From Halorubrum aquaticum (GTDB lineage: Archaea > Halobacteriota > Halobacteria > Halobacteriales > Haloferacaceae), in NCBI RefSeq assembly GCF_900113615.1, contig NZ_FOPZ01000004.1, positions 124,001-188,000 on the forward strand: DNA of 64,000 nucleotides, written 5' to 3'. Shown here in pieces: positions 3,245-28,093 of this stretch; position 1 is the stretch's first letter, and the number at the start of each line of letters is the position of its first letter. The notes beneath the pieces were generated by a model, which worked only from the letters and a program-made list of their open reading frames with translations, had not been told where the DNA came from and searched no databases. The position numbers and the translations under genes are program-made.

Positions 3245-6200
3245 TCACCGTTTCTTTATTTGCCGTCCCACAAACACGGCCGCGAGGGTGAGCACAAACG
3301 CTACCATGATGAGCCCAACTCTGGAGAGCGGGAATTCTGTTGATTCATCACCTGGTGTGTCACCTTCTGCTGTTGCTGTCGAGTCATCTGTGGTCGATGA
3401 TTCGCCAGTGCCCGTTTCATCCGTAGTCGATGGCTCCCCGGTGTCCGTTTCATCCGTAGTCGATGACTCTTCGGCGTCCGAAGACTGTTCTTCGACATCT
3501 TCACCGGCGTCATCATCGACTGTGACGATGAAGCGTGAGAAGCTATCCGTTTCAGCAGTCAGTACCACACGACCATTCTCCCTCGTCGTCTCCGTTTCGA
3601 TCGGCTCGTACGTCTCGTCACCCGAACTGGCGTGAAGAACAACGAGGTCGTTGGTCGAAACGTTGGCGCTGACGGTTTTCAGTTGCGTTTCTGTGAGTTC
3701 CAGTTGGAGAGTCGCAGACCGATTGGCCACTCTCTCTGGTGTCCCGATATCCACGCCAGTAATGAATGGCTGGTCAGCAGCGAGTTGTGGACCGCGTGCT
3801 GGTGTAGAGTTGTAGACGCCAACGGTTAGCGATCCATCGATCTCAGTAGCACCGAACCGGACCCATTCGAGTGGACCGACTGAGACGTTGACGGTCGTTC
3901 CAGCAGTCGTGGGTTCCGTATCGCTGATCGTTGCCCTCTTCGTGGTCGATATCGACGGGCCGTCCGGTGTCTCAAGGTCGCCGTCTTGACCATCTGTGGT
4001 GTCACCGACACCGCCAGTAGTGCCACCACCACCGCCACCACCAGTAGTACCACTACCACCGCCACCATCAGCATCACTTTCCGAAGAGTCGTCGTCGGTC
4101 GCAACTGTTACAGAGACCGTCTGATTCGTCTCGATTCCTGCGGCATCCGCAACACGGACTTCGATTGTCCGGTTGTCACCCGGTTCGAGGTCGGTGAGTT
4201 CGTATCTCACGGTACTCTCGTTGACCCGAGCACTCTCTGTGACGGTGGTGCCGTCCTCGAGGACGCTCACTGAATCAGGGTCAACCCCGGCGGCCGTATC
4301 GTTGTAGCTGAACGCAACGGTCGTGTTATCGACAGTTGCGTTGAGATCTGTGTCATTCGTCTCGACCGTCACCGACGGTGGCGTGTTGTCGACGAGCAGA
4401 CCGCGAGTGCTCGTGTTCCTGACGCCGGTCTCGCTGGTCGCGATGACGCCCAGCGTGTACACCCCGTCGGCGACCGGCTCGCCATCAACGGTCGTATCCC
4501 ACGAGATCGTCTCCTCGCTCTCGAAGGCGCCCGTGACGTTCTTTTCGAGGACGGTTTGCGTTCCGTTGGCGATCACGACACGCACGTCGTCAGGAGCAGA
4601 ATGGTCGGCTCCGACCGTAACGTCCAGTGGCTGGGCTTCGCTCGTCACCTGACCCGCTTCGACGGTCAGTTCCGGTGCCGTGAGCGTTGTCTCAGCCGAC
4701 GTCGTATCAGTCGTCACTTCCGTCTCGTCTGCCGCCATCGACGCGGACGCGAGGTACGACGGATCCTCGGTGAGCGCATAGTCGAGAACTGCGTCACGGA
4801 ACTGTGCCGTTCCGGGTTCGAGTCCGGCGTTCGTCGCCGCCTCGATCGCCACTTCACGATCATCTGCCGGGAGATCGTCGACCGTCACCGGATCGGACGG
4901 GTAGTTCGGATCGTAGAACCCGGCCGCGCTCTCACCCGCGTCGTAATCGAACAGGGAGTTCTCGGCCGTGACGCGGTAGTCCTCGCGGTACTGTCCGTAC
5001 AGTGTCTCGAAGGACGGAGAGGTCGACAGCGTCGTCCCGTCCGCGAGCATGAGGTCGTTGTCCGGGTTCCCGTCCGGGCTTCCGAGGAGTCCCGTCATCG
5101 AATCGACGGCAGTTCGGTTCGGCTTGACGACCACGTCGAGACGATCACCCGCGACGGTTGCTTCCAGCCGTGAGTCACCATCGTCAACGTCGCCGTCTGC
5201 TCCCGGATAGACTACGATGTACGTTTCTGGCGTCCGGAAGATCTCCCCGTCGCCGACCGCGAGGGATTCTCCGGTTTCGAGCGAGCGTGCGATCCCGTCG
5301 ACGGTCAGCATCTGTTCGTCGCGAGCATCAATGGTGACGGTCGTCCCGTTGAGTTCCGTCGCGACCGCCGAGATGACGCTCACGTCTCGATCGGCGACCG
5401 GCCGGAGGCGAGCCTGGACGTGCGGGCTGCCGTCGCTGTCGTTCGTGAGGATGAACTCGCCGGCGGCCTGGAAGTCGTAGGCGACGCCGTCATAGGTGGT
5501 GAGGTGTGGATCGCCGGTGGCGGAGCCGGACTCGTCACCATCCGGTTGTGTGGGTAGATCCAACACAGGATTCTCTTGTGGAATCTGCTCATAACCATTA
5601 TTGATCATTTCCCCAATATCACTATACTTTTTATCATTAATACGAATAGCAATATTATCTTTTATCGCATCGGCTGGGCCCCGAATGAAAGGAGCAGCAC
5701 TCAGAATAGAAATTATTTCTGGTTTGGCGTTTATACCTTCCGAATCCTTCCACACCGGCCCACCACTCTGTCCTCCGTAAAGCGATTCATCAAGCGGTCC
5801 ACTGGTGGCTAATTGATGACACATATTATTAGATCTACAATCTCCGTATGTCCAAGGAGAGGTGCCTTGGCCATCACCAATTATGTCCCACTGTTCGGAC
5901 TCTGGATACCCCGCTTTGTCTCTAGCAACGTAAGGGCCTTTTTTTGGATAGCCAGTTGCATGTACGTCATCAACTGAACTATCGGTGAAGAGGCTGTTTT
6001 CAGCGCCATATACTGGGCTATCCTCAGAGTAGCTTTCATAACCAAATGTTCCAGTTTCGGATGCTAATGTACTGTTGACATTTCCATTAAGATTGTCTAT
6101 AACTGTCTCATTAATATCTCCATTAGGATCGTCTATTGTCAACACTGCCAAATCGTGGGTTCTCTTCTTTTTATTTGTCCACTTTTTGTAGGTTTGTATG

Positions 6201-9200
6201 TAAGTTACCCTCGCATTCGGCGCAATATTATTGCTTTTGTTGCTCCCTGGCACAAATCTAATTTCATCAGTATCTTCTATTACTGGTTTAGTTGCCTCTG
6301 TAGCCCATATTCTTTGACCACTCGAGATTAGTGAATCTCTTGAATAGTCACTACCATACACGCAGTGTGCGGCAGTAATAATATGGTTTTCATCAATAAT
6401 AGTCGCTGTACAGTGTCCCTGTTCCCTGTAACCAGGGCTATTCCCACGGTTATTCCAAAGCACTAATTCCCCGACCGGGCTCCACGGATATTTGCGAGTT
6501 GAATTTATAACTCTTTTTCCACCTGTATAATCCATTCCTGGTAAGGATACATTCGATATTCGAACATCATTCGGTAGAGAAGCAGATGCCGAGGGGTTTG
6601 TTCGAGTATTTATGCTAGTTGTAATATTATTATACGTCTGATTCTGGGGATCGTACCCGACAATATTGTGTTCAACTTTAAGACTCTCAGACAATTTACT
6701 ATCATCAGTCTTTGTCCACTCGTTATTGAGGTATGCTTCGGTAACCACCCGCACCTGCTTCGTTCCATTCGTGGACGGATCATACTCATAGCCGTAGAAC
6801 CCAGTTTCATCGGACGAGATGTTCGTCCCCAAGCCTCCCCGAAAGACGTTCTTCTCCGCAGAGTTGTCGTTATTCGTATCCACATGGATCTGCACCCGTA
6901 CGGGACGTTCGGGACCGTCGTTACGAACCTCCGGGCTGATCGTAACCGGCTGACCACCGTAGAAGCCACCGTCGCCGTTCTCATCACCCTCAAGCGTGAC
7001 CTGCGACAGCCGCGGAGCCGTCCGCTGAACCGTCGTGCTCGCGCCGTTATCCACTGTGACGCTTGTGCTGCCCCAGAAGGAACCCTCAGGCCCGTACAGT
7101 TCGACGTTGTACTCGCCGGCAGTCAGCGTGGACCACGACCCAATACCACTCTGATTGGCCTGTCGGCTGTTCAGAATGACGAAGCTGTCATTGTAGAGTT
7201 TGATTTCGGCCCCGGGAACGATGTCACCGCTCGCGTTCGTCGCCGTCACCGACAGCGTGTTCGACCCGTTCAGTTCGGGTGGCCGGTCAGGCGTGACTGT
7301 CTCGTTGATATCGGTACTCGCGTTCTGCTGTTGCGCTGAGGAGAAGTAGCTCTCGTCACCCGTCAACGCGTAATCGATGAGCGCGTTCCGGTATGCCGAC
7401 GTGCCCGGTGTGAGGCCGGCTTCTGCTGCGAGCTGTTCTGCTTCGGTACGCGTGTCCGGATCGATATCGTTTACCGTGAAACTACCACGGGGAATCGTTG
7501 GGTCGTAGTACGTCTCCGGACCGTTGTCACCTTCGTACTCGAACAGCGTCGTGTTCTCGGTGACTCGCCAGTCATCGCGGAACGACCCGTACAGCTCGTT
7601 GGAGTTGGACGGGTTCGACACCACGGTCCCGTTCGCGAGCGCGATATCGTTCGAACTGTTGTCGTCGATATTGCCGAGGATGCCCTCGACCGGGCGGTTT
7701 CGATCCGCATCGAGTCGGACTTCGATGTCGATCCGGTTGTCGAAGACGTCGACTACGACTCGTTCATCGGTTGGGCCGGGGTCGTCATCTTCGCCCGGAT
7801 AGACGATCGCGTAGCTACTTCCAGTACGCTCAATCGTTCCATTGCCGACGGCGACTGCTTCACCATCGCTGATCTCGGTGGGTGTACCGTTGATCTGGAC
7901 GGGCGTCGAATCGGTCACGTCGATCACGACTGACTCTCCGCCGACTGTCGTCGCGAGCGCCGTGTTGATCGTGACTGAGTTACTACGGTCGATCGGCTCC
8001 TGACGAGCCTGAATTTCGAGCGATCCCGCCGGCTCCCGGACGAGCGTGTACTCGCCGGCCGCCATGTAGTCGTAAGCAACCCCGTCGAACGTCACGAGGT
8101 GTGGGTCACCAGTCGACACGGCCGTTTCGAATTCCTCACCGACCACCGTCACCTGCCGTTGCGTCTCGTCTGCCGCAATAATGCCGTACGAGTATTCACC
8201 AGGGTCGAAGGAAGTCGGGGCAGTGAATCCGACCGTGGTGTTCGCTCCTGGCGCAAGCGTCAGTTCTCGCGTGCTGATCGTCTCGAGAGTGCCGTCTTGA
8301 TCGACGTCAAACCCGAACGCAACCGATTCTGTCGTGTTGTTTGACGTGGGATTCGTGACCGTCGCAGAGACGGAGGGCCGCTGTGTTTGTGTAATCGTAC
8401 TCGGGCCCTGAATGCTATCAACGACAAGCTGGTCCGTCGGATCCGACCCTGCTGGCTCATTTACAGACACGGTTACGCTATCGTTCGCGGATTCACTCGT
8501 GACCGCAGCAGTGATCTCCGGGACGTCCGACTCGTTCGTTTGGTACACGAACCTCTCCGTCGGCTGCTCTCTCGAGACGGGATCGGAATCATCGAACTGA
8601 CGGAGAACGGTTAGATGTCCGTCCGTATCGGGACCGTACAATGCTCTCCCATCGGAAGCGAGGCTTCGATAACCCGTCACACGCTTGCCGGTACGCTGGA
8701 TCAGTCTCCCATCAGTCGTAAACTGTCCGAGTTCGTTTGTATCGCTGGTGCCGACCCACAGCGTTTCGTTTTGATACGAAAGCCCCCTCGGACTGGTCGT
8801 ATCGAGTGAAGCTCCCACATCGAACTGTGAGAGTTGTTCGCCCGTGTCTGGATCCAACTCTCGAACGCTATTGGACGTGACCTCGAGGACCCACAGCGAC
8901 CCGTCTTCGTATGCGAGGTCGCTAGGATCGTATCGGTCGTTGGTGATCTGTGATCGAACGGCACCAGTCTCGGGATCGAGTTCAACGATCCCGCCTTCGA
9001 AGTTGGCATCCGTCGTGTCGGTAAACCAGAGTGAGCCGTCTGCATACGTGAGCCCACGAGGAGTGCCGTCAGGCGCGGCAAATTGCGAGACGATATCACC
9101 AGTCTCGCGGTCGATCTCTACTATGTCTCCGTTTTCGGTTACGTAGATGGAGTCTTCGGCGAGAGCGATTCCTCGTTGTCCCGAGACGTCGTAGTCTGAT

Positions 9201-12200
9201 TTGGTTGTACTCGGTTCAATAGTCCGCGTTTCCACAATCTCACCGTCGACGACGAACTCGAGCTGTTCTCCATGGGTGGTGTCGTCGATGTCCGTGACGT
9301 TCGCTGTGACGCTCACCGTATCGCCGGCAACGACTGAATCGTTGAACTCCGTGATCGCCAACTCAAGTTCGGGTTCGTCGCGGATCGTCACGCCGAGATT
9401 GTCCTCGACATCTTCGGAATAGGTCGTGATCGTGTACGCTCCCGGAGCAAGCCCATCGGTTTCTACCGTGGTTTCGATCGTGGTGTTCTCTCCGGGGTCG
9501 AGTTCGACGGATTCACGCGGTCCGGAGACGGGGGTTCTGGTTCCGTCTTCAGTTTGGTTCAGTAGATCCACGGCGATCGTCTGAGAATCGGAGACGCCGC
9601 CGACGTTCTCGACTTCAACGACGACGGATAGATTCGTCTCCTCAGTGAGTGTGGTCTCAGTGGCGTTTGAATCGAGCGAGACCGTGAATTCCGACTCATT
9701 CAACACTTCAATACTCCCGGACCCGTCATCGTCGGTAGTTTCGACCGTAAATGGAAGCGTCTTCCCGGCGTCGACCTCGTTGGTTGGCGCCGTGAATGTA
9801 AGCTGTTGAGTCTCACCGGCTCCAAGTGTAATAGTGTCTCTCGTTTCGACGAGAGTATCGTTTACGGTGAACGTGACGTCTTGTGTTGTCTCTATTTCTC
9901 CGGTGTTTCTGACGGTAGTGTTTATCTCGATTATCTCTCCCGCAGAGACGGTTCCATCCGCGTTGATATTGGTGATTTCGAGCTGTTCATTCGCGATTGG
10001 TTCTCGAATACGGACTCCGTTTCCTGTCTGTGGACTCCCGCTGAGCGAGATGATCCGCTCACGGTCCAACTCCGCCCGCTGTTCGTCGACGATCACGAGA
10101 TCCCATCGATATTCACCCGGATCCACATCGAGTTCGTTCAACGGGATCTCGAACTCGCCATCGCTATCTGCGTGATCGATCTCGACCTGATCGATGATCT
10201 GTTCACTAGGTGGGATCGTACGGTTATCACCCACGACCCGGAATTCGACGGTCCAGTTTTCACCGACGGCTGGATCACGCGTGATGGTGGCGATGTCCCC
10301 GTTCTGTTCGAACGTTGCCTCATAGCCCATTCCCACGAGCCGTTCGTCGGTGCTATCGATGACGTCTCCCTCCTCATCAACCAACTCGACGACGTACTCG
10401 TTGAACGTCCCGTCAGTGTAGATACCCGTATCTCCTTCGACGGTTACGTCGATATTGTCGGAATTCAACGCAGAATCACTGTCGGGGAACGGAAGAATCT
10501 GCGCTTGCGGCTCGCCGGTTCCGTCGTTCTGGAAGCCGAGCCGATAGATCTCATCGAGTGGAACCGTCCGCGCGTCGTTCGTCGGCGTGTACGTGACGGC
10601 GTCCCCGGTATCGGGATCGACGACCCGGAGCCGCAGATCGCCTTCACCGCCGAAGGTGACCGGGTCGTCGGTGTCGACGAAGATGTCGAGTTGATCTGCG
10701 TACACACTGCCGTCCCCGGTTGGTGTGCTAATCGTTGAAGAACCAGGGTTGTGTTCGATCGAGACTGGAGGATCGACCACGTTCTCGGATTCGACCACGA
10801 CTTCATCGACGCCGAAGACATTGATCACCCGGTCGTCCAACTCTCCACCGCCCGGTAATCCGTCGTGGTCGTATAACTCGAGCCGGTACGTGTACTCGCC
10901 CGGCGGCACATCACTGACATCAACGGTGAAATTGAACGTCTCATCGCCCGCTTCGTTCTCGACTTCGACTGGCGCAAACTCGATATCGTTGCCCAGACTG
11001 AATGCGGCAACCCACTCGGAGTCAATCCCTTCGTTCAGGTTTTCGCGGGGAATACTGAATTCGATCTCACCAGCCGTGGCGTTTTGCTTGATCCCGTCGC
11101 CGATGTTGTATCCGATACCGATCAACCGTGGCTCAGTCGAGTCGACGACGTCGCCGTCCCGTAGCAATCGGACTTCGTACTCGGCGAACGGATCGGACGT
11201 TTCGGTCCTGTCGTTGGCGACACCATCGGCAAACATTCCAGTGTCACCGGAGACGGAGACGTTGATTCGCGTCGAGTCAGCAAGGATGGTGGCGGAATCT
11301 CCAATCGTTCCGTCGCCACTGTAAATCCCGAATCCGATCGATTCAGCAGAAACCGTCGGTTCACCGGCTTCTGGTTCGACGGTCACCGTTTGACCAGTCG
11401 ATGGTTTCGCGATCTCGAACGCGACGGAACTGTCACCACCCACGGCGATCGAAGATTCACTGCCTCCGGGCACGATGTTGAGCTTCTCAGCGACGAGTTT
11501 CGGATCGCCTCCGATGCCGCTGGTACTTCCGGAGGACGGATCGTGCTCGATGGTCACTTCTCTTGCGGGTGGTTCCTCGGAGAGCGTCGTTAGCTCGGCG
11601 TCCGTGTAAAACGGGCTGATGACGACGTTCTCGAAGGCCGCAGCGCCGGAGCCGTTGAAATTACCACTTGGTCCATCAGACGCGCCCCAGTAGTTGTGTG
11701 TGGCGTTGCCTTCCGTCGCTTCGTCTGCGACGACACCCGCTCCCGAAACGTTTCGCAGTCGTGACTGTTTGATCGTCCACTGCCCTTCGGCTCTTGTGGC
11801 ATCAACCGCGGCGCCGCCCGTCTCGCTGATGGTGACGCTGTCGAGTGTCCAGTCACCGTCGGTTTCTTCGGCGCTGACACCGTTGTTCGTCGCGCCGTCG
11901 ATGGTCGAGTCCCGAACCGTCCAGTCGTCCGTCGCTCCGACGGCCCGGATACCGTCTTCGTTGTCGACGAACGTCGCGTTCGCCACCGTCCACTGACCGG
12001 TGGAATCCTCGGCGTTGATGGCTTCCTCGTCGGTGCCGTTTCGGACGGTGGTCCGCGAGATCGTCCAGTCGCCGGTAGAGTCGTCCGCGGAGATTCCGCC
12101 GGTCCGCCGGAACGTCGACTCACGAACGCTCCAGTCACCGGTACTCTCGAATGCGACCAGGCCGGTCGGTGTATCAGTCACAGTTACGTTGGCGACCGTC

Positions 12201-12772
12201 CACGAGGCTGGCGTCCCGGCAGCACCGACTCCGAATTCACTATCCGTGATCATGGTATCCCGGAGCGTCCACGCACCCTCGGATCCTCCCGCGCTGAATC
12301 CCGACCTCCATCCTGTGATGGTGAATCCGGAGATAGTCGGCGTGGCTGGCCCCAACACTTGGATCCCTGCTGGATAGTCGATCGACTCGTTCTCGACCGT
12401 TGCTCCATCCGGCGCAATAAGCGAGATGTTCTTTCTGATGACGACTGCCTCCGTGTACGTTCCCGGACGAACTTCGATCGTGTCACCGTCGGTCGCATCA
12501 TCGATCGCCGATTGGATCGAATCGAAATCACCTACTGCTGGATCGGCCGCCACGACGATGTCCGACTGAACAGTGCCTGTACTCTCGGACTCACTGGTCG
12601 TGTTCTGTTCGGACCCCGGATCCTCGTTCGTGAGCGTTCCATCGTTTCCTTCGACGGTCGAATCGTGGGCCGCCGTTGCGAGACCACCAAAGGCGACGGA
12701 CCCACCGACCATCGAGATGATCATGAGACACGAAAAAAAGACCGCATTAAACTGCTTGCGTGTCGTCGTCAT
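3245..12772 (-). CDS. Giant surface protein: beta-helix, propeller, VWD-protease-VWD, membrane anchor
   Basis: About 3,175 residues. Order: signal peptide (1-35); right-handed beta-helix, pectin-lyase-like (about 75-395); two diverged 240-residue repeats beginning IEHDP/IEHNP (about 404-660 and 667-910); CARDB-like domains (930-1190); a beta-propeller of GLTYADGSLW-type repeats (1194-1394); VWD domain with tail (from 1550); a PEGA-like domain; a trypsin-like protease (about 2070-2370) with TAAHC, HDLAVL and GGQSGGPVW supplying the His/Asp/Ser triad; a second VWD with a similar tail (from 2417); Ig-like domains; a Gly-rich linker; a PGF-pre-PGF-like domain (about 2944-3090); an acidic Ser/Thr linker; and a final membrane helix ending RQIKKR. 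No PGF motif precedes that helix. The ATG at 12772 puts the signal peptide at the N-terminus; a GTG at 12802 would add ten residues. It probably acts in adhesion or processing at the cell surface. Confidence 0.85.
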   Translation of the reverse strand: MTTTRKQFNAVFFSCLMIISMVGGSVAFGGLATAAHDSTVEGNDGTLTNEDPGSEQNTTSESESTGTVQSDIVVAADPAVGDFDSIQSAIDDATDGDTIEVRPGTYTEAVVIRKNISLIAPDGATVENESIDYPAGIQVLGPATPTISGFTITGWRSGFSAGGSEGAWTLRDTMITDSEFGVGAAGTPASWTVANVTVTDTPTGLVAFESTGDWSVRESTFRRTGGISADDSTGDWTISRTTVRNGTDEEAINAEDSTGQWTVANATFVDNEDGIRAVGATDDWTVRDSTIDGATNNGVSAEETDGDWTLDSVTISETGGAAVDATRAEGQWTIKQSRLRNVSGAGVVADEATEGNATHNYWGASDGPSGNFNGSGAAAFENVVISPFYTDAELTTLSEEPPAREVTIEHDPSSGSTSGIGGDPKLVAEKLNIVPGGSESSIAVGGDSSVAFEIAKPSTGQTVTVEPEAGEPTVSAESIGFGIYSGDGTIGDSATILADSTRINVSVSGDTGMFADGVANDRTETSDPFAEYEVRLLRDGDVVDSTEPRLIGIGYNIGDGIKQNATAGEIEFSIPRENLNEGIDSEWVAAFSLGNDIEFAPVEVENEAGDETFNFTVDVSDVPPGEYTYRLELYDHDGLPGGGELDDRVINVFGVDEVVVESENVVDPPVSIEHNPGSSTISTPTGDGSVYADQLDIFVDTDDPVTFGGEGDLRLRVVDPDTGDAVTYTPTNDARTVPLDEIYRLGFQNDGTGEPQAQILPFPDSDSALNSDNIDVTVEGDTGIYTDGTFNEYVVELVDEEGDVIDSTDERLVGMGYEATFEQNGDIATITRDPAVGENWTVEFRVVGDNRTIPPSEQIIDQVEIDHADSDGEFEIPLNELDVDPGEYRWDLVIVDEQRAELDRERIISLSGSPQTGNGVRIREPIANEQLEITNINADGTVSAGEIIEINTTVRNTGEIETTQDVTFTVNDTLVETRDTITLGAGETQQLTFTAPTNEVDAGKTLPFTVETTDDDGSGSIEVLNESEFTVSLDSNATETTLTEETNLSVVVEVENVGGVSDSQTIAVDLLNQTEDGTRTPVSGPRESVELDPGENTTIETTVETDGLAPGAYTITTYSEDVEDNLGVTIRDEPELELAITEFNDSVVAGDTVSVTANVTDIDDTTHGEQLEFVVDGEIVETRTIEPSTTKSDYDVSGQRGIALAEDSIYVTENGDIVEIDRETGDIVSQFAAPDGTPRGLTYADGSLWFTDTTDANFEGGIVELDPETGAVRSQITNDRYDPSDLAYEDGSLWVLEVTSNSVRELDPDTGEQLSQFDVGASLDTTSPRGLSYQNETLWVGTSDTNELGQFTTDGRLIQRTGKRVTGYRSLASDGRALYGPDTDGHLTVLRQFDDSDPVSREQPTERFVYQTNESDVPEITAAVTSESANDSVTVSVNEPAGSDPTDQLVVDSIQGPSTITQTQRPSVSATVTNPTSNNTTESVAFGFDVDQDGTLETISTRELTLAPGANTTVGFTAPTSFDPGEYSYGIIAADETQRQVTVVGEEFETAVSTGDPHLVTFDGVAYDYMAAGEYTLVREPAGSLEIQARQEPIDRSNSVTINTALATTVGGESVVIDVTDSTPVQINGTPTEISDGEAVAVGNGTIERTGSSYAIVYPGEDDDPGPTDERVVVDVFDNRIDIEVRLDADRNRPVEGILGNIDDNSSNDIALANGTVVSNPSNSNELYGSFRDDWRVTENTTLFEYEGDNGPETYYDPTIPRGSFTVNDIDPDTRTEAEQLAAEAGLTPGTSAYRNALIDYALTGDESYFSSAQQQNASTDINETVTPDRPPELNGSNTLSVTATNASGDIVPGAEIKLYNDSFVILNSRQANQSGIGSWSTLTAGEYNVELYGPEGSFWGSTSVTVDNGASTTVQRTAPRLSQVTLEGDENGDGGFYGGQPVTISPEVRNDGPERPVRVQIHVDTNNDNSAEKNVFRGGLGTNISSDETGFYGYEYDPSTNGTKQVRVVTEAYLNNEWTKTDDSKLSESLKVEHNIVGYDPQNQTYNNITTSINTRTNPSASASLPNDVRISNVSLPGMDYTGGKRVINSTRKYPWSPVGELVLWNNRGNSPGYREQGHCTATIIDENHIITAAHCVYGSDYSRDSLISSGQRIWATEATKPVIEDTDEIRFVPGSNKSNNIAPNARVTYIQTYKKWTNKKKRTHDLAVLTIDDPNGDINETVIDNLNGNVNSTLASETGTFGYESYSEDSPVYGAENSLFTDSSVDDVHATGYPKKGPYVARDKAGYPESEQWDIIGDGQGTSPWTYGDCRSNNMCHQLATSGPLDESLYGGQSGGPVWKDSEGINAKPEIISILSAAPFIRGPADAIKDNIAIRINDKKYSDIGEMINNGYEQIPQENPVLDLPTQPDGDESGSATGDPHLTTYDGVAYDFQAAGEFILTNDSDGSPHVQARLRPVADRDVSVISAVATELNGTTVTIDARDEQMLTVDGIARSLETGESLAVGDGEIFRTPETYIVVYPGADGDVDDGDSRLEATVAGDRLDVVVKPNRTAVDSMTGLLGSPDGNPDNDLMLADGTTLSTSPSFETLYGQYREDYRVTAENSLFDYDAGESAAGFYDPNYPSDPVTVDDLPADDREVAIEAATNAGLEPGTAQFRDAVLDYALTEDPSYLASASMAADETEVTTDTTSAETTLTAPELTVEAGQVTSEAQPLDVTVGADHSAPDDVRVVIANGTQTVLEKNVTGAFESEETISWDTTVDGEPVADGVYTLGVIATSETGVRNTSTRGLLVDNTPPSVTVETNDTDLNATVDNTTVAFSYNDTAAGVDPDSVSVLEDGTTVTESARVNESTVRYELTDLEPGDNRTIEVRVADAAGIETNQTVSVTVATDDDSSESDADGGGGSGTTGGGGGGGTTGGVGDTTDGQDGDLETPDGPSISTTKRATISDTEPTTAGTTVNVSVGPLEWVRFGATEIDGSLTVGVYNSTPARGPQLAADQPFITGVDIGTPERVANRSATLQLELTETQLKTVSANVSTNDLVVLHASSGDETYEPIETETTRENGRVVLTAETDSFSRFIVTVDDDAGEDVEEQSSDAEESSTTDETDTGEPSTTDETGTGESSTTDDSTATAEGDTPGDESTEFPLSRVGLIMVAFVLTLAAVFVGRQIKKR

Positions 12773-12802
12773 GAGCCGACCCCACTCTCGGCAAGGAGAC
12801 AC

Positions 12803-13704: not shown

Positions 13705-15120
13705 TCAGTGAGAGGGTCCATTCTCGAGAACGGCAACGGTATCGGACAGATCGAAGAGGCGGAGGTCATCACGTTCGTCTGCGGCTTCTTCGACGGAGGG
13801 GTTGAACCCGGAGCGGCTGAACAAGGCGAATTCATACGTCGGCTCACCACCCCCCGTGGGCGTCCAGTCGACGTGCTCCACGTCGTCTTCGAGATCCGAA
13901 AGTACAGCATAACTGAGGGGGGTACTCGTGAATTTCACTTCACCAGCGATCAGCGTTGACTCGTCAGTTGGCGCGACGATATCCACCTCCCGGCTCTTGT
14001 ACCACCACTGGGTTGGCACTTGTGTGAGCTGGTAGTCTGAATAGAGTGCCGGCACCGCCTGGTGACAGAGCGATTCAAACGTTTCGCTGACGAAATCGGG
14101 CAATTCTGGTTCGATGAGATCCGTATAGACGTTCTCGCCGTAGAGTTCGTACTGCCCCTCGCGGCCGTAGAGATACCGAAAGTAAAACCGGAAGACAGGG
14201 TCTCGAATCCGGTATCGTGTCCGCTTGCTGCGTGCCGGGTCGGAGAGTGCCGGATAGTGTTTCTCGATGATTTGGAGCGTTTCCAGCCGGTCGAAGTAGT
14301 ACGACGTGTTGGTGCTCTCGATCCCAGCCCCCTGAGCGATCTCGTTTCGACGACGGTTCCCGCTAGCCATCGACTCGAGCACGGAAAAATACGTGTTCAC
14401 CTCGTTGAGCTCCATTTGGAGGACGGTTTCGGGCTCGTCGTGGAGTGGGCCATCCGGATCGCACAGCAGCCGCGTGATGTTCTCTCCGAGGCTCTGTGAC
14501 GGATCGAGCGGGCTGAGATATCGGGGTGTGCCGCCGAAGACGCCATAGACGAACACCCGCTCTTCGGGATCGTACGTCGGCACGAACTCGTGGACGGTGC
14601 GAAACGGCAGCTGGGCGAGTTCGAGGCGGCCGTTCGGTGTCTGGGACACCCGGCCGTAGAGCGGTGCACCGCCATCGAGGACGTGGGTATGAATCATGCC
14701 GATCGCAGATCCCGTGAGTACGAGCGTTGCCTGGCTTTCGTGGACGGCCGTATCCCACAAATGTTGTATGATCGACGGGAGCCCGTCGTTCGATTCGATA
14801 AGGTACGGAAATTCGTCGATGACGATAATGGCGTCTCTCTCGGTGAGGTACGCCAAGAGCGGCTCCCACTCCTCTTTGACGGCCGTGATATCTGGATACG
14901 TCGTCGCTGCTGCCTCGACGAACCGCCTGAGTTGTGTCCTCGACGTTCCTTGGACCGCCTGATAGTACACCGCATCGTCGCGGTCAGCGATCGATCGGCG
15001 GACGAGTTCGCTCTTGCCGATCTGGCGACGTCCATAGACGATCGCGAGTTCCGCAGCATCACTCTTATAGAGCGTCTGTAACCGATCGAGTTCATCGACG
15101 CGATTGACGAACTGATCCAT
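13705..15120 (-). CDS. Archaeal AAA+ ATPase with DUF234 nuclease-like C-terminus
   Basis: 471 residues. The N-terminal AAA+ module opens with FVNRVDEL and has a Walker A variant, GRRQIGKSELV (about 30-40). The Walker B is IIVIDEFPYL (about 98-107) and the sensor segment is LVLTGSAIGM. A winged-helix region follows (about 250-310, GAGIESTNTSYYFDRL). The C-terminal part carries the DUF234/PD-(D/E)XK-like signature REVDIVAP...LIAGEVKFT (about 390-415) that would supply Asp, Glu and Lys. This matches the archaeal ATPase family that joins PF01637 with DUF234. The cellular role of these proteins is not established. It sits alone, with an AT-rich promoter region above it. Confidence 0.85.
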   Translation of the reverse strand: MDQFVNRVDELDRLQTLYKSDAAELAIVYGRRQIGKSELVRRSIADRDDAVYYQAVQGTSRTQLRRFVEAAATTYPDITAVKEEWEPLLAYLTERDAIIVIDEFPYLIESNDGLPSIIQHLWDTAVHESQATLVLTGSAIGMIHTHVLDGGAPLYGRVSQTPNGRLELAQLPFRTVHEFVPTYDPEERVFVYGVFGGTPRYLSPLDPSQSLGENITRLLCDPDGPLHDEPETVLQMELNEVNTYFSVLESMASGNRRRNEIAQGAGIESTNTSYYFDRLETLQIIEKHYPALSDPARSKRTRYRIRDPVFRFYFRYLYGREGQYELYGENVYTDLIEPELPDFVSETFESLCHQAVPALYSDYQLTQVPTQWWYKSREVDIVAPTDESTLIAGEVKFTSTPLSYAVLSDLEDDVEHVDWTPTGGGEPTYEFALFSRSGFNPSVEEAADERDDLRLFDLSDTVAVLENGPSH

Positions 15121-22665: not shown

Positions 22666-24657
22666 CTATCCCCCTGACGTCTCGAACGGGTATCGCCACG
22701 TTCGACCCGGGAGCTCATCGACATGAAGATCTGACAGGCTTCCGGGAAATTGGCTCTTCAAATTGTGCGCGAACGACCCCGATATCGGCTCTTCAGATTG
22801 GTGGCGAAGCCACGCAACAAACTCGGCTTCGACGGCCGAAACAGCGAGTGACTTCTCAGAATCTGAGACAGTATAGATAGCGAAGAAGTCGGCCGCGGCA
22901 GCCTGATCCCGGGTGGGTAACTGCGGGCAATCCCACGAGGCTTGCTGCTGATATTCTCGCAGGGCACTCGCTTCCTGAGTGAGGACCGTGACGAACTCGA
23001 GGCCGGCGGCAAGCCAGGTAGGGACGGCTGGGCGGCGAACAAACGCACACGCCTCGAAAAACGCGTCGCGGGTGGCATACGAAAGCTGGTTGTCGCCAGC
23101 AGCGGTCCGGACAAGAATCTCATCGTCCTGTTGGTATGCTCGCGGGAAGTCCGAGACAAGTGTACTGAACGATCCATCGCGAGATCGGCTCAGTACCGCG
23201 TTCCCCTTGTGGTGGTACACTACCACTCCGTCTGGAGTGAGCGTCCACTCGGTGTTGGCTGTCCGTTCTCGAACGGCCGTGGCGATGTCTTCACGAAGGG
23301 GTGTCGATCGTTCGTACAATCGCGTGCCAGCGGCGGTGATCTCGAACGGTTGTTGGAGACAGTGCCGTGCGCGAGCAGCGACTTCGGTTGCGTCTGTGAA
23401 GACCGTGAGCCGATCAGTTGTCGACGACTGATGGACGTCAGCGGCGACCGCAATCAGGTCGCCACGCACGAACTGTGGATCGGTCACAATGACACAGCGA
23501 TGTGTCCGGTCTGGGTACACCGCGGTGAACTCCTCGAACGGACTGGAGTGGTCGTCGGTGATGTTCCCACCCTGTTCACGGGCCCACTCGAGAGCGGTTC
23601 GACCAAACGAGGATTCAATCTCGAGTTCCGCAGCGGTCGGAATGGGAGCCGATGGCGGCGGCGACGCTGCCGGCGGCGTTGGCTTCCGCAGGGTGTACTG
23701 AGGGGTAATCCGTGGTGGTGCGCGACCGAAAGTGTCCCACGGCGAGACGTGGTACGTTTGTTCTCGCAGCCCACAAAATGCTGGTAAGAGTTCTGTATCG
23801 AGCCGAATCCACGGAAGTACGCCATGTTGGGCGTACGTCGACGTGAGTGGGGCCGCAGGTGGGTGGTCAGAGAACAACGCCGCATACTCTGTTGGGGTCC
23901 GTGAGAGCGTGCGAGCAGACGCAATCGTCGAGATTTTTGTAGTCGCCCCGTGCTCGTGTGTCACCATCGGGGCGGGTGGCCCAGACACGCGGGGTTCTGT
24001 GTGGAGTTCCCAGCCGTGATCGAAGATGAGCTCACGGTTCGTCGTGAGATTGAATGCGTCGAAGGGGGCTGTCATATCAGGCGCGTCCTGATGATAGTGG
24101 GCGTCACCCGCAGCCGTGTGGGTGGCCACCTCAGGTGAGAAATCTGCGATGCGGAGGCTCACTTCAACACACTCACTCTCGAATCGACCGACGACGAGTT
24201 GGATCGCATGTGGGCGAATACCGGCGGCGATCTCGAGGAGTTGTTCGACTGGTGTTGGCGTCGATGTCCGGGCGCGCTCGACTGGGTGATCGCGTGTTGT
24301 GAGCAGTCGGTGGACGGGCACGGGGGTGTTGCCGAGTGGTGCTGGGTCGACCTCGACAATTGAGATGCCAACGTCGAGTGGGAGTTCATCGTTGGCAATG
24401 CTGGCGAGCCTCTCAGTGCTCTCAGTGGAGTGTGTGGTCGGTCGCGAGCGGAGCAGATACCGCTCACGATGGTGTCCAGAGACCGCGAGCAACGTGACAG
24501 TGTTGAGGTGTTCGTCGAAAAGCGCCCGATAGATCACCCGCGCGAGGAGTCGTGAGATGGGCGTCCCGTGGTATCCAGCTGGTGACTTGCTCGTGGTGAC
24601 GAACTCGACAGCAGCCCACGGCGCAGCGGGATGACTCCCCGTTGTGATGTGTTTCAT
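22666..24657 (-). CDS. Large unknown protein, degenerate partner of the nuclease-like protein upstream
   Basis: 663 residues, start overlapping the upstream stop (ATGA at 24654-24657). It looks like a full-length paralog of the 794-residue protein. Both share PLGNTPV (about residue 110 here), an LPxxxGL...PWxxxGRxxPR segment (about 300-325), a middle nuclease-like region and a C-terminal winged-helix-like part. Here the middle region reads VYPDRTHRC...LIAVAADVHQ, so the Glu and Lys expected in a PD-(D/E)XK site are absent. The last 75 residues (EAEFVAWLRHQSEEPISGSF...RTWRYPF) resemble the winged helix at the C-terminus of phage/plasmid primases, which suggests DNA binding. No Walker motifs. 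Not a family I can name. Confidence 0.6.
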   Translation of the reverse strand: MKHITTGSHPAAPWAAVEFVTTSKSPAGYHGTPISRLLARVIYRALFDEHLNTVTLLAVSGHHRERYLLRSRPTTHSTESTERLASIANDELPLDVGISIVEVDPAPLGNTPVPVHRLLTTRDHPVERARTSTPTPVEQLLEIAAGIRPHAIQLVVGRFESECVEVSLRIADFSPEVATHTAAGDAHYHQDAPDMTAPFDAFNLTTNRELIFDHGWELHTEPRVSGPPAPMVTHEHGATTKISTIASARTLSRTPTEYAALFSDHPPAAPLTSTYAQHGVLPWIRLDTELLPAFCGLREQTYHVSPWDTFGRAPPRITPQYTLRKPTPPAASPPPSAPIPTAAELEIESSFGRTALEWAREQGGNITDDHSSPFEEFTAVYPDRTHRCVIVTDPQFVRGDLIAVAADVHQSSTTDRLTVFTDATEVAARARHCLQQPFEITAAGTRLYERSTPLREDIATAVRERTANTEWTLTPDGVVVYHHKGNAVLSRSRDGSFSTLVSDFPRAYQQDDEILVRTAAGDNQLSYATRDAFFEACAFVRRPAVPTWLAAGLEFVTVLTQEASALREYQQQASWDCPQLPTRDQAAAADFFAIYTVSDSEKSLAVSAVEAEFVAWLRHQSEEPISGSFAHNLKSQFPGSLSDLHVDELPGRTWRYPFETSGG

Positions 24658-27038
24658 TCCGCCTCGTCTGTGTCGATCTCGACGTCGGCCACCGACGTCT
24701 CTGTGAGTGTTTCGGTGAGGTCGGTGAGTCCCTCTTCAACGCCCGGGCGATGGGGCGTGTCGATCTCTGGGGGGATGACCCAGTCGTATTCCGGGTAGTG
24801 CGGATTGCGGTTGTTGGTGCCGCCTTTCTTTGCGTCTTTGATCTCGTCGGGGAGCGCTTGGACGATGATCGATCCCGGTGGGGTGTCGTGTGTTGAGGAA
24901 GCTGTGTAGTAGTGTTGGGCCCACGTTTGGAGTGCTCCCGACGAGATGCGCGCGTCTTCGCGCTCACAGATGAGCTGATCAGTGAACGCTTCGAGACAGC
25001 CACGGTGTCGATTCATCTTGCCGACGCTGTCAGGCGTATCCCAGCTTGGAGGGTCGAAGTAGACGTCAATACCACCCTCTTCGGTACGGTACGCAACTGT
25101 CGCGAAATGAAGGTAGTTACCACAAATGGGAATGTGTGGGAGGCTGATCTTCGTCCACTCTGAAGTGAACGTCTCTGGGGTATTGTACTCCGCAATGACA
25201 GTGCCATCTTCTTCTTCGACGCGGTGGACGCCGTCGACCTCCTGGTAGAAGTGGGTGTCCCACGAGAACTCACCGACATCGCCGCCGGGTGCGCCGCCCG
25301 CGATACGCTCGCCGTTGACGCGAGCGACAAGCCGATCGCGACCAAACAGCTCCCAGGTGGTTGTGACACTGCCTTTCAACACCGGAATGCGGTCATCGGG
25401 ACACCGCACTGGCCTTGTACGGTTGTACAGCCGAACACCGCAATCATCTCGGTCTGAGAGGTCGTCGTTGTACGGCTGACTGAGGTGGGTAAAGCCCCGT
25501 TTTGCGTTTTTTCGTGAGGTATAGACGAAGATGACGTGGCGACCCATGGCGTAGGCGCGGTCAGCGTTGACGAGTGTGGTCGACGCCTTTGTGTTGTTCT
25601 TATATTCAGCCTCAACAGAGACGTATGAATCGTCAACAGTCAGTGGGATGGTACTGATCGCACCGGTCTCTGTGTGGAGTTCGATATCCGGCAGCGACTT
25701 TGAGTTCTGGGTGATTTCGTAGATCTCATCGCCGCCTTCGGTGAAAATGTCAATAATCGACTGGACGTGTCCCTGGTGTCCAGGGCTGCCGATGTTTTGT
25801 ACTGACTCATCGGGGACAGGGATGAACTCATCATCTTCGCCGTAGTTTGGCGCCGTTGAGCCGTATGTACTGAGTATCTCTTCTGTGAAGAATCTGGGCG
25901 CATCACGACCTGGAACGACCGCCCACGGGTTGGTCTTCCAGCGTGACCGAACAAGGCCCGTGAGTTGTGGCAAGAACGGTCCCGAGATTGAGAATCGGGC
26001 ATAGCGGTTGAGCTCATCTTCGAGCAGTGAGTCCCACGTTGCGTTCGCAGACAACATATGCCAGTAATCGGATTTGCCAAGCACGATGTCTTTCACTTTG
26101 TTCGCTTCACGCCGTGCCCGCGCTTTTGATTTGCGCGCTGTTACCATCTCGTCAGTGTAGCTTGCGCTAGCTACGGGCTTACCATTGATTTTCTCGGTGT
26201 ACTCAGTCTCCCAGTACCGGTCAGTGAGTCCCCGAAAGTTAGACGTGAAGTTGTACTTGCTGAACGTCGTCGCCAGATCAAATGGGTGGCCGCGTTCAGC
26301 GATCTCGGCGAAGCCCTCTTTGCCAGTAAAGACGAACTGGGGTGGATACGTCGCAAGTCGAACGGTGGCAGTGTACTGGCCGTGCTCTGCTGGTGTAAAG
26401 ATTGTTTGATACAAGAATGCTACTGAGTGCTCACGCAGTGTCTCAAACGTCGTCGCTAGCACGTCGACACCGCTCGTGCCAACGGGATTGACCACGTGGG
26501 TGTTCTTGAGATGAAGCCGAGACGCGTTGACTGGGGTGTTACCGAGTGGAGAGAGGTCAAGGGTCCCACGTTCGACGGTACATTCTTCAGGAACGTATTT
26601 TTGGATCGCTTTGGTGATTTTGTTGACGCCCGGCAGATGGGTCCTGTCTATGAAATCGTCGATCGTACTCTGGTTGATACTTCGGCCGTCGTTTCGTTTT
26701 GGCTCGATGCTTAAGATGAGTTCCAAGCCAACCGGGCCGGGGAACTGGAGCACTTCGAACTGTTTGATTCCACCGGCGGTTTCCTTGCGGACTTCTTCGA
26801 TGACTTGGGTGATACACCCGCGGATGTAGTCGGGGAGCGTTTCGAACTCGTCTTTGATGATGGGGAGTCGAATTCGAAAGGCCGAGCGTCGTTGGGGTTT
26901 GTCTTTGGATGGCTCGAATCGGGCGCGTGTGCTGGGCTCGAACTTCTCGTCTGGAAGCGTGTCTGGGGTTGCGGAGTCTTCCTGGTCATCTTCAGCGCGG
27001 TTGTCTTCGGTTTGGGGGGATTCTGGGGTTGCGGCCAT
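24654..27038 (-). CDS. Large unknown protein with PD-(D/E)XK nuclease-like site
   Basis: 794 residues, first gene of a two-gene operon. The N-terminal 50 residues are acidic and probably disordered. A shared N-terminal region follows, with LSPLGNTPVNASRLHL (about 165-180) and VAFLYQTIFTP, which distantly recalls the non-ATPase part of HerA/VirB4-like proteins. At about 450-480, KSLPDIELHT followed by VSVEAEYKN fits a PD-(D/E)XK metal-nuclease site (Asp ~451, Glu ~475/477, Lys ~479). The C-terminal part has a primase-tail-like winged helix. No ATPase motif is present. Family unknown to me; a DNA-processing or defence role is inference. Confidence 0.6.
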   Translation of the reverse strand: MAATPESPQTEDNRAEDDQEDSATPDTLPDEKFEPSTRARFEPSKDKPQRRSAFRIRLPIIKDEFETLPDYIRGCITQVIEEVRKETAGGIKQFEVLQFPGPVGLELILSIEPKRNDGRSINQSTIDDFIDRTHLPGVNKITKAIQKYVPEECTVERGTLDLSPLGNTPVNASRLHLKNTHVVNPVGTSGVDVLATTFETLREHSVAFLYQTIFTPAEHGQYTATVRLATYPPQFVFTGKEGFAEIAERGHPFDLATTFSKYNFTSNFRGLTDRYWETEYTEKINGKPVASASYTDEMVTARKSKARARREANKVKDIVLGKSDYWHMLSANATWDSLLEDELNRYARFSISGPFLPQLTGLVRSRWKTNPWAVVPGRDAPRFFTEEILSTYGSTAPNYGEDDEFIPVPDESVQNIGSPGHQGHVQSIIDIFTEGGDEIYEITQNSKSLPDIELHTETGAISTIPLTVDDSYVSVEAEYKNNTKASTTLVNADRAYAMGRHVIFVYTSRKNAKRGFTHLSQPYNDDLSDRDDCGVRLYNRTRPVRCPDDRIPVLKGSVTTTWELFGRDRLVARVNGERIAGGAPGGDVGEFSWDTHFYQEVDGVHRVEEEDGTVIAEYNTPETFTSEWTKISLPHIPICGNYLHFATVAYRTEEGGIDVYFDPPSWDTPDSVGKMNRHRGCLEAFTDQLICEREDARISSGALQTWAQHYYTASSTHDTPPGSIIVQALPDEIKDAKKGGTNNRNPHYPEYDWVIPPEIDTPHRPGVEEGLTDLTETLTETSVADVEIDTDEAE

Positions 27039-27380: not shown

Positions 27381-27656
27381 ATGTCAACAGCGGTCAAGAT
27401 GGATGAAGACGCGAAATCAAAGCTCGAAGAACTCCAGGCAGAGATCCGGCTCAAAACGGGAAAGAAAGTCACCCAACAGGAACTTCTCTCTACCCTGATC
27501 CAATCGGCGGTCAACTCCCGCGCGGAGTTCATCGATTCGTTCCGAGATGGACCAACAGCCCTGAACGAAACGGAACTCGAGGAATTCAACCAAGGGACAA
27601 TCGCCTCCGGTGTCGAAACGACGGAAGACGACATCGACGATATCTTGTACGGATGA
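27381..27656 (+). CDS. VapB-like antitoxin
   Basis: 91 residues. The N-terminal part (MSTAVKMDEDAKSKLEELQAEIRLKTGKKVTQQELLSTLIQSA) has the pattern of a ribbon-helix-helix DNA-binding domain, followed by an acidic tail (TTEDDIDDILYG) that would bind the toxin. The PIN gene starts within its stop codon (ATGA at 27653-27656). Confidence 0.85.
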   Translation: MSTAVKMDEDAKSKLEELQAEIRLKTGKKVTQQELLSTLIQSAVNSRAEFIDSFRDGPTALNETELEEFNQGTIASGVETTEDDIDDILYG

Positions 27657-28093
27657 GCGTCTTCGTCGATACCGGCGTGTTCTACGCCCATCACGACACC
27701 GACGCCAGCCGACACACGGTCGGTACTGACGCGTTGAATACCGTCCTTTCGTCCGCAGAATACGGGCACGTGATGACGAGCGACTACGTCTACGACGAAA
27801 CAGTCACGCTGACGCAGCGGCGGACAGGAAATGTCGACGCCGGGCTCGAAGTGGGACGGCGCATTCGCGGTGCGGGGTATCCCTCGGCCATCGAATCACT
27901 CCACTCGTCTCCCACGCTCTTCGATCGTGCCGTGTCCGTCCACCAGACGTACGCCGACCACGAGTTCAGCTTCACGGACGCGATGACCGTCGCGATGGTC
28001 GAATACCACGAGATAGACGGGGTGTTGAGTTTCGACGACGACTTCGACGGGATCGTCCCGCGACTCGTTCCGGAGACACTGGCGTTTCAGTGA
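27653..28093 (+). CDS. vapC: VapC-type PIN-domain ribonuclease toxin
   Basis: 146 residues with a textbook PIN layout: Asp in MSVFVDTGVFYA (residue 6), Glu in SDYVYDETVTL (about 49), Asp in FSFTDAMTVAMV (about 106) and Asp in GVLSFDDDFDG (about 124-126). These four acidic positions would bind the metal used to cut RNA. It is translationally coupled to its antitoxin. The 3' end overlaps the convergent PIN gene at 28087 by seven bases. Confidence 0.88.
   Translation: MSVFVDTGVFYAHHDTDASRHTVGTDALNTVLSSAEYGHVMTSDYVYDETVTLTQRRTGNVDAGLEVGRRIRGAGYPSAIESLHSSPTLFDRAVSVHQTYADHEFSFTDAMTVAMVEYHEIDGVLSFDDDFDGIVPRLVPETLAFQ

Follow-up and report, generated by a model that had tools for sequence, protein, structure and literature searches.

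A locus of Halorubrum aquaticum codes for two large related proteins, here called A and B, of which only A displays a nuclease-like site. From which proteins does this pair derive, and what is its function? These questions were addressed in a 64,000-nucleotide stretch of DNA (contig NZ_FOPZ01000004.1, positions 124,001 to 188,000), referred to as the window, and by comparison with related archaeal genomes.

The A/B operon

Gene A (positions 24654-27038, minus strand, 794 amino acids) lies upstream of gene B (22666-24657, minus strand, 663 amino acids), and both open reading frames were confirmed. The stop codon of A and the start codon of B overlap in an ATGA (24654-24657, minus strand; sequence ...gaggcggaATGAaacac), as described in an earlier note based on the DNA sequence. 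That note also regarded the two products as full-length paralogs that match no known system, and both statements are borne out. BLASTP aligns A with B across 522 columns (6e-11) and the A profile detects B with an E-value of 2e-51, while profile-profile comparison relates their N-halves (E 5.5e-32) as well as their C-halves (E 4.8e-35). The PLGNTPV segment noticed earlier in the two proteins is located at residue 164 of A and 107 of B. Neither A nor B has a credible match in Pfam, PHROGs, NCBIfam or PADLOC, the defence models of the latter giving none up to an E-value of 0.1. The open-access literature yielded no description of the A/B pair or of nuclease-fused archaeal coupling proteins.

A has its nearest relatives, at 86-89% identity, in Halorubrum halodurans, H. 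alkaliphilum and H. coriense. Full-length A is encoded by about 23 of the 391 sampled genomes of the class (roughly 6%). Co-occurrence of the two genes, which had been put forward as a check, is near-constant: a B-type gene directly adjoins A, in the order A-B or B-A, at 23 of the 28 A loci that were examined gene by gene, and B is broken at locus L039. Among the five A loci without B, three (L034, L037 and L091) have a nearby 313-350 amino acid paralog of the C-half in its place and two (L030 and L035) have neither.

A and B each form one clade in a phylogenetic tree (reciprocally monophyletic, support 100/100), so a single split accounts for both. Their trees mirror each other (Mantel r 0.945, with 0 of 5000 permutations as high); linked genes are co-inherited anyway, and the mirroring thus shows long joint residence, not physical contact. 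Purifying selection acts on both genes, with omega values of 0.22-0.28 (A) and 0.26-0.33 (B). The possibility that B is a decaying copy is ruled out by this selection, by its intact reading frame at most loci and by its single ancient origin.

The nuclease-like site

Residue numbers are those of full-length A; its alignment and structure model start at codon 2 and have numbers one lower. The core of the nuclease-like domain of A spans residues ~411-520 (25479-25808, minus strand) and is common to VirD4/TraG-type ATPases. Its conserved set in A comprises H421, P450, D451, E476, E478, K484, N491 and R494. D451 (25686-25688, minus strand) does not vary among A proteins or the related ATPases, and the PD motif to which it belongs is invariant across 15 aligned A sequences; certain A sequences have an insertion ahead of the motif, and the shift of PD that automatic alignment gives them is an artefact. 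The E476-A477-E478 triplet (25605-25613, minus strand) provides an E-x-E that is also invariant in A.

The earlier note had proposed a PD-(D/E)XK site composed of the Asp, the acidic residues and the Lys of the EYKN segment. D451, E476 and E478 are among the conserved residues, so the proposal holds on the sequence side for its acidic members. Its Lys does not stand: the position of K480 is occupied by Leu, Asp, Trp, Phe and other residues in relatives, and the conserved basic residue is K484 instead (25587-25589, minus strand; alignments of A proteins). The classical position of the PD-(D/E)XK Lys is a Glu throughout the whole family, with another Lys or Arg six residues on. BamHI is a nuclease that carries such an E-x-E.

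The corresponding region of B (residues ~350-440; 23338-23610, minus strand) is degenerate. VAADVHQ is present at residue 404, where the earlier reading placed it, and the 22 B proteins have neither the Asp nor the E-x-E at the site. The latter is found in 26 of 26 intact A proteins, in none of the 22 B proteins and in none of seven short partners, a distribution in agreement with the idea of an active-like protein paired with an inactive-like one.

Comparison with the profile of Hjc, an archaeal Holliday junction nuclease of the PD-(D/E)XK type, places the PD and E-x-K of Hjc in register with the PD and E-x-E of A, the first Glu included, but the similarity is not significant (probability 2.8, E 0.016; reversed control 0.3) and A differs from such nucleases in having E-x-E rather than E-x-K. 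PF18743 is matched by one of 22 members only (E 0.0057). A sequence-profile search of the PDB gave no credible match to solved nucleases, and searches with Replic_Relax and AHJR-like families gave no useful bridge to known nucleases. Neither A nor B matches a relaxase family in Pfam; in the relaxase comparison NF041423 was matched by one aligned A-family member only (E 0.023). The nuclease-like region is poorly modelled (residues 392-483 of A, pLDDT below 50), and around the site the low-confidence model has a helix, a strand with the E-x-E, a helix and a strand. The conserved D/E-x-E site makes A a candidate nuclease.

Amino-terminal domain and carboxyl-terminal tail

The structure models of A and B were built on 13 and 10 sequences, respectively, with a mean pLDDT of 58. 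The N-half of A (residues ~45-370; 25929-26906, minus strand) superimposes on the N-terminal domain of TrwK, the VirB4 ATPase of R388 type IV secretion (VIA Z 11.4, rmsd 4.1, 220 residues aligned); the five best rows of the VIA ranking are all TrwK, followed by ESX-3 chains. The N-half of B (residues ~14-320; 23698-24618, minus strand) has an ESX-3 chain first (Z 10.5) and aligns also to TrwK (Z 9.2, rmsd 3.9, 219 residues aligned). These are re-ranked Foldseek hits whose own E-values are not significant for either model, so their support is moderate. A sequence-based comparison leads in the same direction: the combined N-halves of A and B (48 sequences) match the N-domain of coupling proteins (26 sequences) by hhalign with an E-value of 1.6e-5 (reversed control 0.74). 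The VirB4-type N-domain anticipated for both proteins is supported by these results. A and B, whose models have the N-terminal fold of VirB4/TrwK, lack its C-terminal ATPase domain, and no sequence similarity was found between their N-halves and the archaeal VirB4-like ATPases that neighbour coupling proteins.

The tail of A (residues ~560-765; 24744-25361, minus strand) consists of a sandwich-like stretch and a winged helix, and is homologous to the Pox_D5-carrying C-terminus of coupling ATPases. The primase-like winged helix recognized earlier is of the Pox_D5/primase-C type, the homologous tail scoring as PF03288 in related proteins.

Relation to conjugation coupling proteins

With the A profile, the nuclease-like domain is detected in large haloarchaeal proteins of ~640-1600 amino acids. 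These score as TraG/VirD4/HerA-type ATPases and the longer among them add a C-terminal Pox_D5 winged helix. The C-half of A matches the C-terminus of these coupling ATPases in hhalign comparisons (probability 99.6, E 1.6e-24; also E 2.7e-21). They have in common the signature H...G...Q...PD...ExE.....KP..vL.NL.RA, of which H, G, D, E-x-E and N are invariant in 22 of 22 sequences drawn from A and the coupling ATPases. The coupling N-domain matched by the N-halves is either part of the ATPase or encoded by a separate gene. A Walker A motif ([GA]xxxxGK[ST]) is present in 27 of 28 coupling-type proteins but absent from all 55 proteins of the A, B and short partner groups, and no ATPase domain was found by Pfam in A or B. 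Homology of both halves together with the missing Walker A gives A and B the appearance of nuclease-fused coupling proteins that lack a motor. This part was probably lost in A/B rather than gained in the others. This link to conjugation coupling proteins is an addition to what the earlier note had proposed.

Haloarchaeal VirD4/TraG-type proteins, annotated 'type IV secretory system conjugative DNA transfer family protein' (~1000-1600 amino acids; e.g. on Haloarcula marismortui plasmid NC_006394), are the closest point of reference by anatomy. A shares with them the N-domain, the nuclease-like domain with its PD...ExE...KP...N signature and the winged-helix tail, B having the region without the site. 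Unlike them, A and B have no ~450-residue motor domain, form an active-like/inactive-like pair and give no plasmid match. HerA-NurA likewise joins, in archaea, a nuclease to an ATPase family of the transfer type, but the nuclease-like domain of A is fused to an ATPase-less N-domain and nothing NurA-like was identified among the operon products.

Nuclease-fused coupling ATPases have a VirB4-like ATPase as their neighbour, not only in Halobacteria but also in another family of the phylum, probably Archaeoglobaceae. Examples with PD...ExE are encoded at L074:6208-10665, L081:3407-7819, L075:6167-9313 and L126:14222-17050. Coupling ATPases of this kind are common on plasmids of haloarchaea; the long form occurs on 166 plasmid records, where it is annotated as a conjugal transfer protein. 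Two giant fusions (L124:2364-12245, 3293 amino acids, and L125:3922-13554, 3210 amino acids) combine N-domain, coupling ATPase and nuclease-like domain with ~1700 further residues, and have no match in the PDB by sequence.

The genome to which the window belongs has no nuclease-fused coupling ATPase. A strong ordinary one is found in only 5 of 26 A-bearing genomes, a few others having giant fusion versions; a role of A and B as accessories of a resident nuclease-fused coupling protein is thus unsupported.

Genomic neighbourhood

The surroundings of A/B loci vary and include toxin-antitoxin genes, TnpB, nucleotidyltransferase cassettes and sugar-nucleotide genes, and genes of Cdc6/Orc1 type lie near several of them. 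Next to the pair, no gene family recurs at most of the 28 A loci, no integrase was identified there and no repair genes are conserved beside A/B. The loci are chromosomal wherever the contig is long enough to judge. Searches of 72,556 plasmid records with A, divergent A or B queries gave no match, nor did searches of viral contigs and phage records with A.

In the window, A adjoins a divergent toxin-antitoxin-like pair (27381-28093, plus strand; a 91 amino acid protein, then a 146 amino acid PIN protein), which recurs beside A in two related species and is not claimed for the mechanism. At about half of the loci the divergent neighbour gene codes for a winged-helix-like protein that has one or two membrane segments at its C-terminus. 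These proteins (L027:7582-8352, L026:7012-7764, L084:5356-6516, L093:10268-11155) belong to several families that BLAST does not join but which have the same layout; they could be regulators or membrane anchors. None was found in the clade of the window.

A three-gene cassette (about 950, 79-85 and 216 amino acids) recurs near several A/B loci (L033:2192-5950, L042:1510-5190, L088:1170-4931). On the contig of the window, ~50 kb past the start of A and outside the window (L042:13052-13750), a second A-type gene is represented by a C-terminal fragment of 232 amino acids, which shares 86% identity with the A of L032, from a different genome of the genus. The host may therefore once have had a second, different pair. 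Within the window, positions 13705-15120 code an archaeal ATPase_2 and DUF234 protein with a match to PDC-S27, a candidate model of PADLOC (E 1.9e-44), and a 3185-residue open frame (3245-12802) with Pfam von Willebrand D, beta-helix and trypsin-like matches is probably a giant surface protein.

Possible roles of A and B

The motor-less module was duplicated to active-like and inactive-like subunits that stayed together through deep divergence. This suggests a heteromeric enzyme; no described counterpart of this kind was found. In the best reading, to which we give about an even chance, A and B form a heteromeric DNA-processing complex of motor-less archaeal coupling-protein parts, most likely for defence against, or exclusion of, mobile DNA. 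The two subunits would be built from VirD4/TraG-type parts with a C-terminal nuclease-like domain. They probably bind each other, held together by their VirB4-like N-domains, and would contact DNA with their winged-helix tails. Cleavage would be the task of A, at its D451/E476/E478/K484 site; B would not cut but serve as a regulatory subunit or hold the DNA. Acting from a chromosomal locus, the complex may be directed against conjugative or other mobile DNA; such a defence role is suggested by the location and the distribution of the genes. Several observations weigh against this explanation: the canonical PD-(D/E)XK Lys is a Glu, the nuclease-like region is poorly modelled, no solved nuclease is matched by sequence and no known defence model is matched, and toxin-antitoxin genes such as those next to A are common in haloarchaea generally.

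Defence or exclusion ranks ahead of mobilisation. A and B could instead be the mobilisation module of an integrated element, A nicking the element DNA and the pair docking in trans on a conjugation machine, like in bacterial integrative mobilisable elements. Such a module would fit the coupling-protein parts of A and B, the Cdc6/Orc1-type genes close to several loci and the patchy distribution of A, but against it stand the neighbourhood, with no adjacent family common to most of the 28 loci and no identified integrase, and the absence of plasmid and viral matches, and we consider it unlikely.

Somewhat less probable still is a reading without catalysis, in which the domain, with its conserved acidic motif, is a fold that binds DNA or nucleotides and the A/B complex has a structural or regulatory role. 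The missing canonical Lys, the poor modelling of the region and the weakness of the register match to Hjc are compatible with this. A catalytic site is nevertheless favoured by residues (H, D, E-x-E and N) that never vary among A and the coupling ATPases, by their entire loss in B and by that same register with the PD...E-x-K of Hjc.

The least probable alternative is a chromosomal module for DNA exchange or repair, which would act on DNA that is incoming or damaged and would be, like Ced/Ted, a piece of conjugation machinery that was domesticated. This has a precedent in archaeal domesticated conjugation machinery (PMC9905601) and agrees with the chromosomal loci, but is at odds with an operon without ATPase, with the small share of genomes that have A and with the lack of conserved repair genes alongside; defence or exclusion is ranked ahead of it too.

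Implications for archaeal conjugation

The A/B operon is unnamed and bears on the open question of DNA processing during archaeal conjugation. According to published surveys and reviews, relaxases are rare among archaea or have not been identified there, and in archaeal conjugative plasmids none was identified although VirB4- and VirD4-like proteins are present (PMC3158045, PMC9905601, PMC12857230). An improbable view is that the PD...ExE domain of haloarchaeal and archaeoglobal coupling proteins is the apparently missing DNA-cutting enzyme of archaeal conjugation, and that A/B is a motor-less chromosomal copy which now serves to restrict or exclude conjugation specifically and which would co-assemble with the coupling protein of the invader or mimic it. 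A strictly conserved nuclease-like domain on a coupling protein offers a testable candidate for the DNA-cutting step that is missing from archaeal conjugation.
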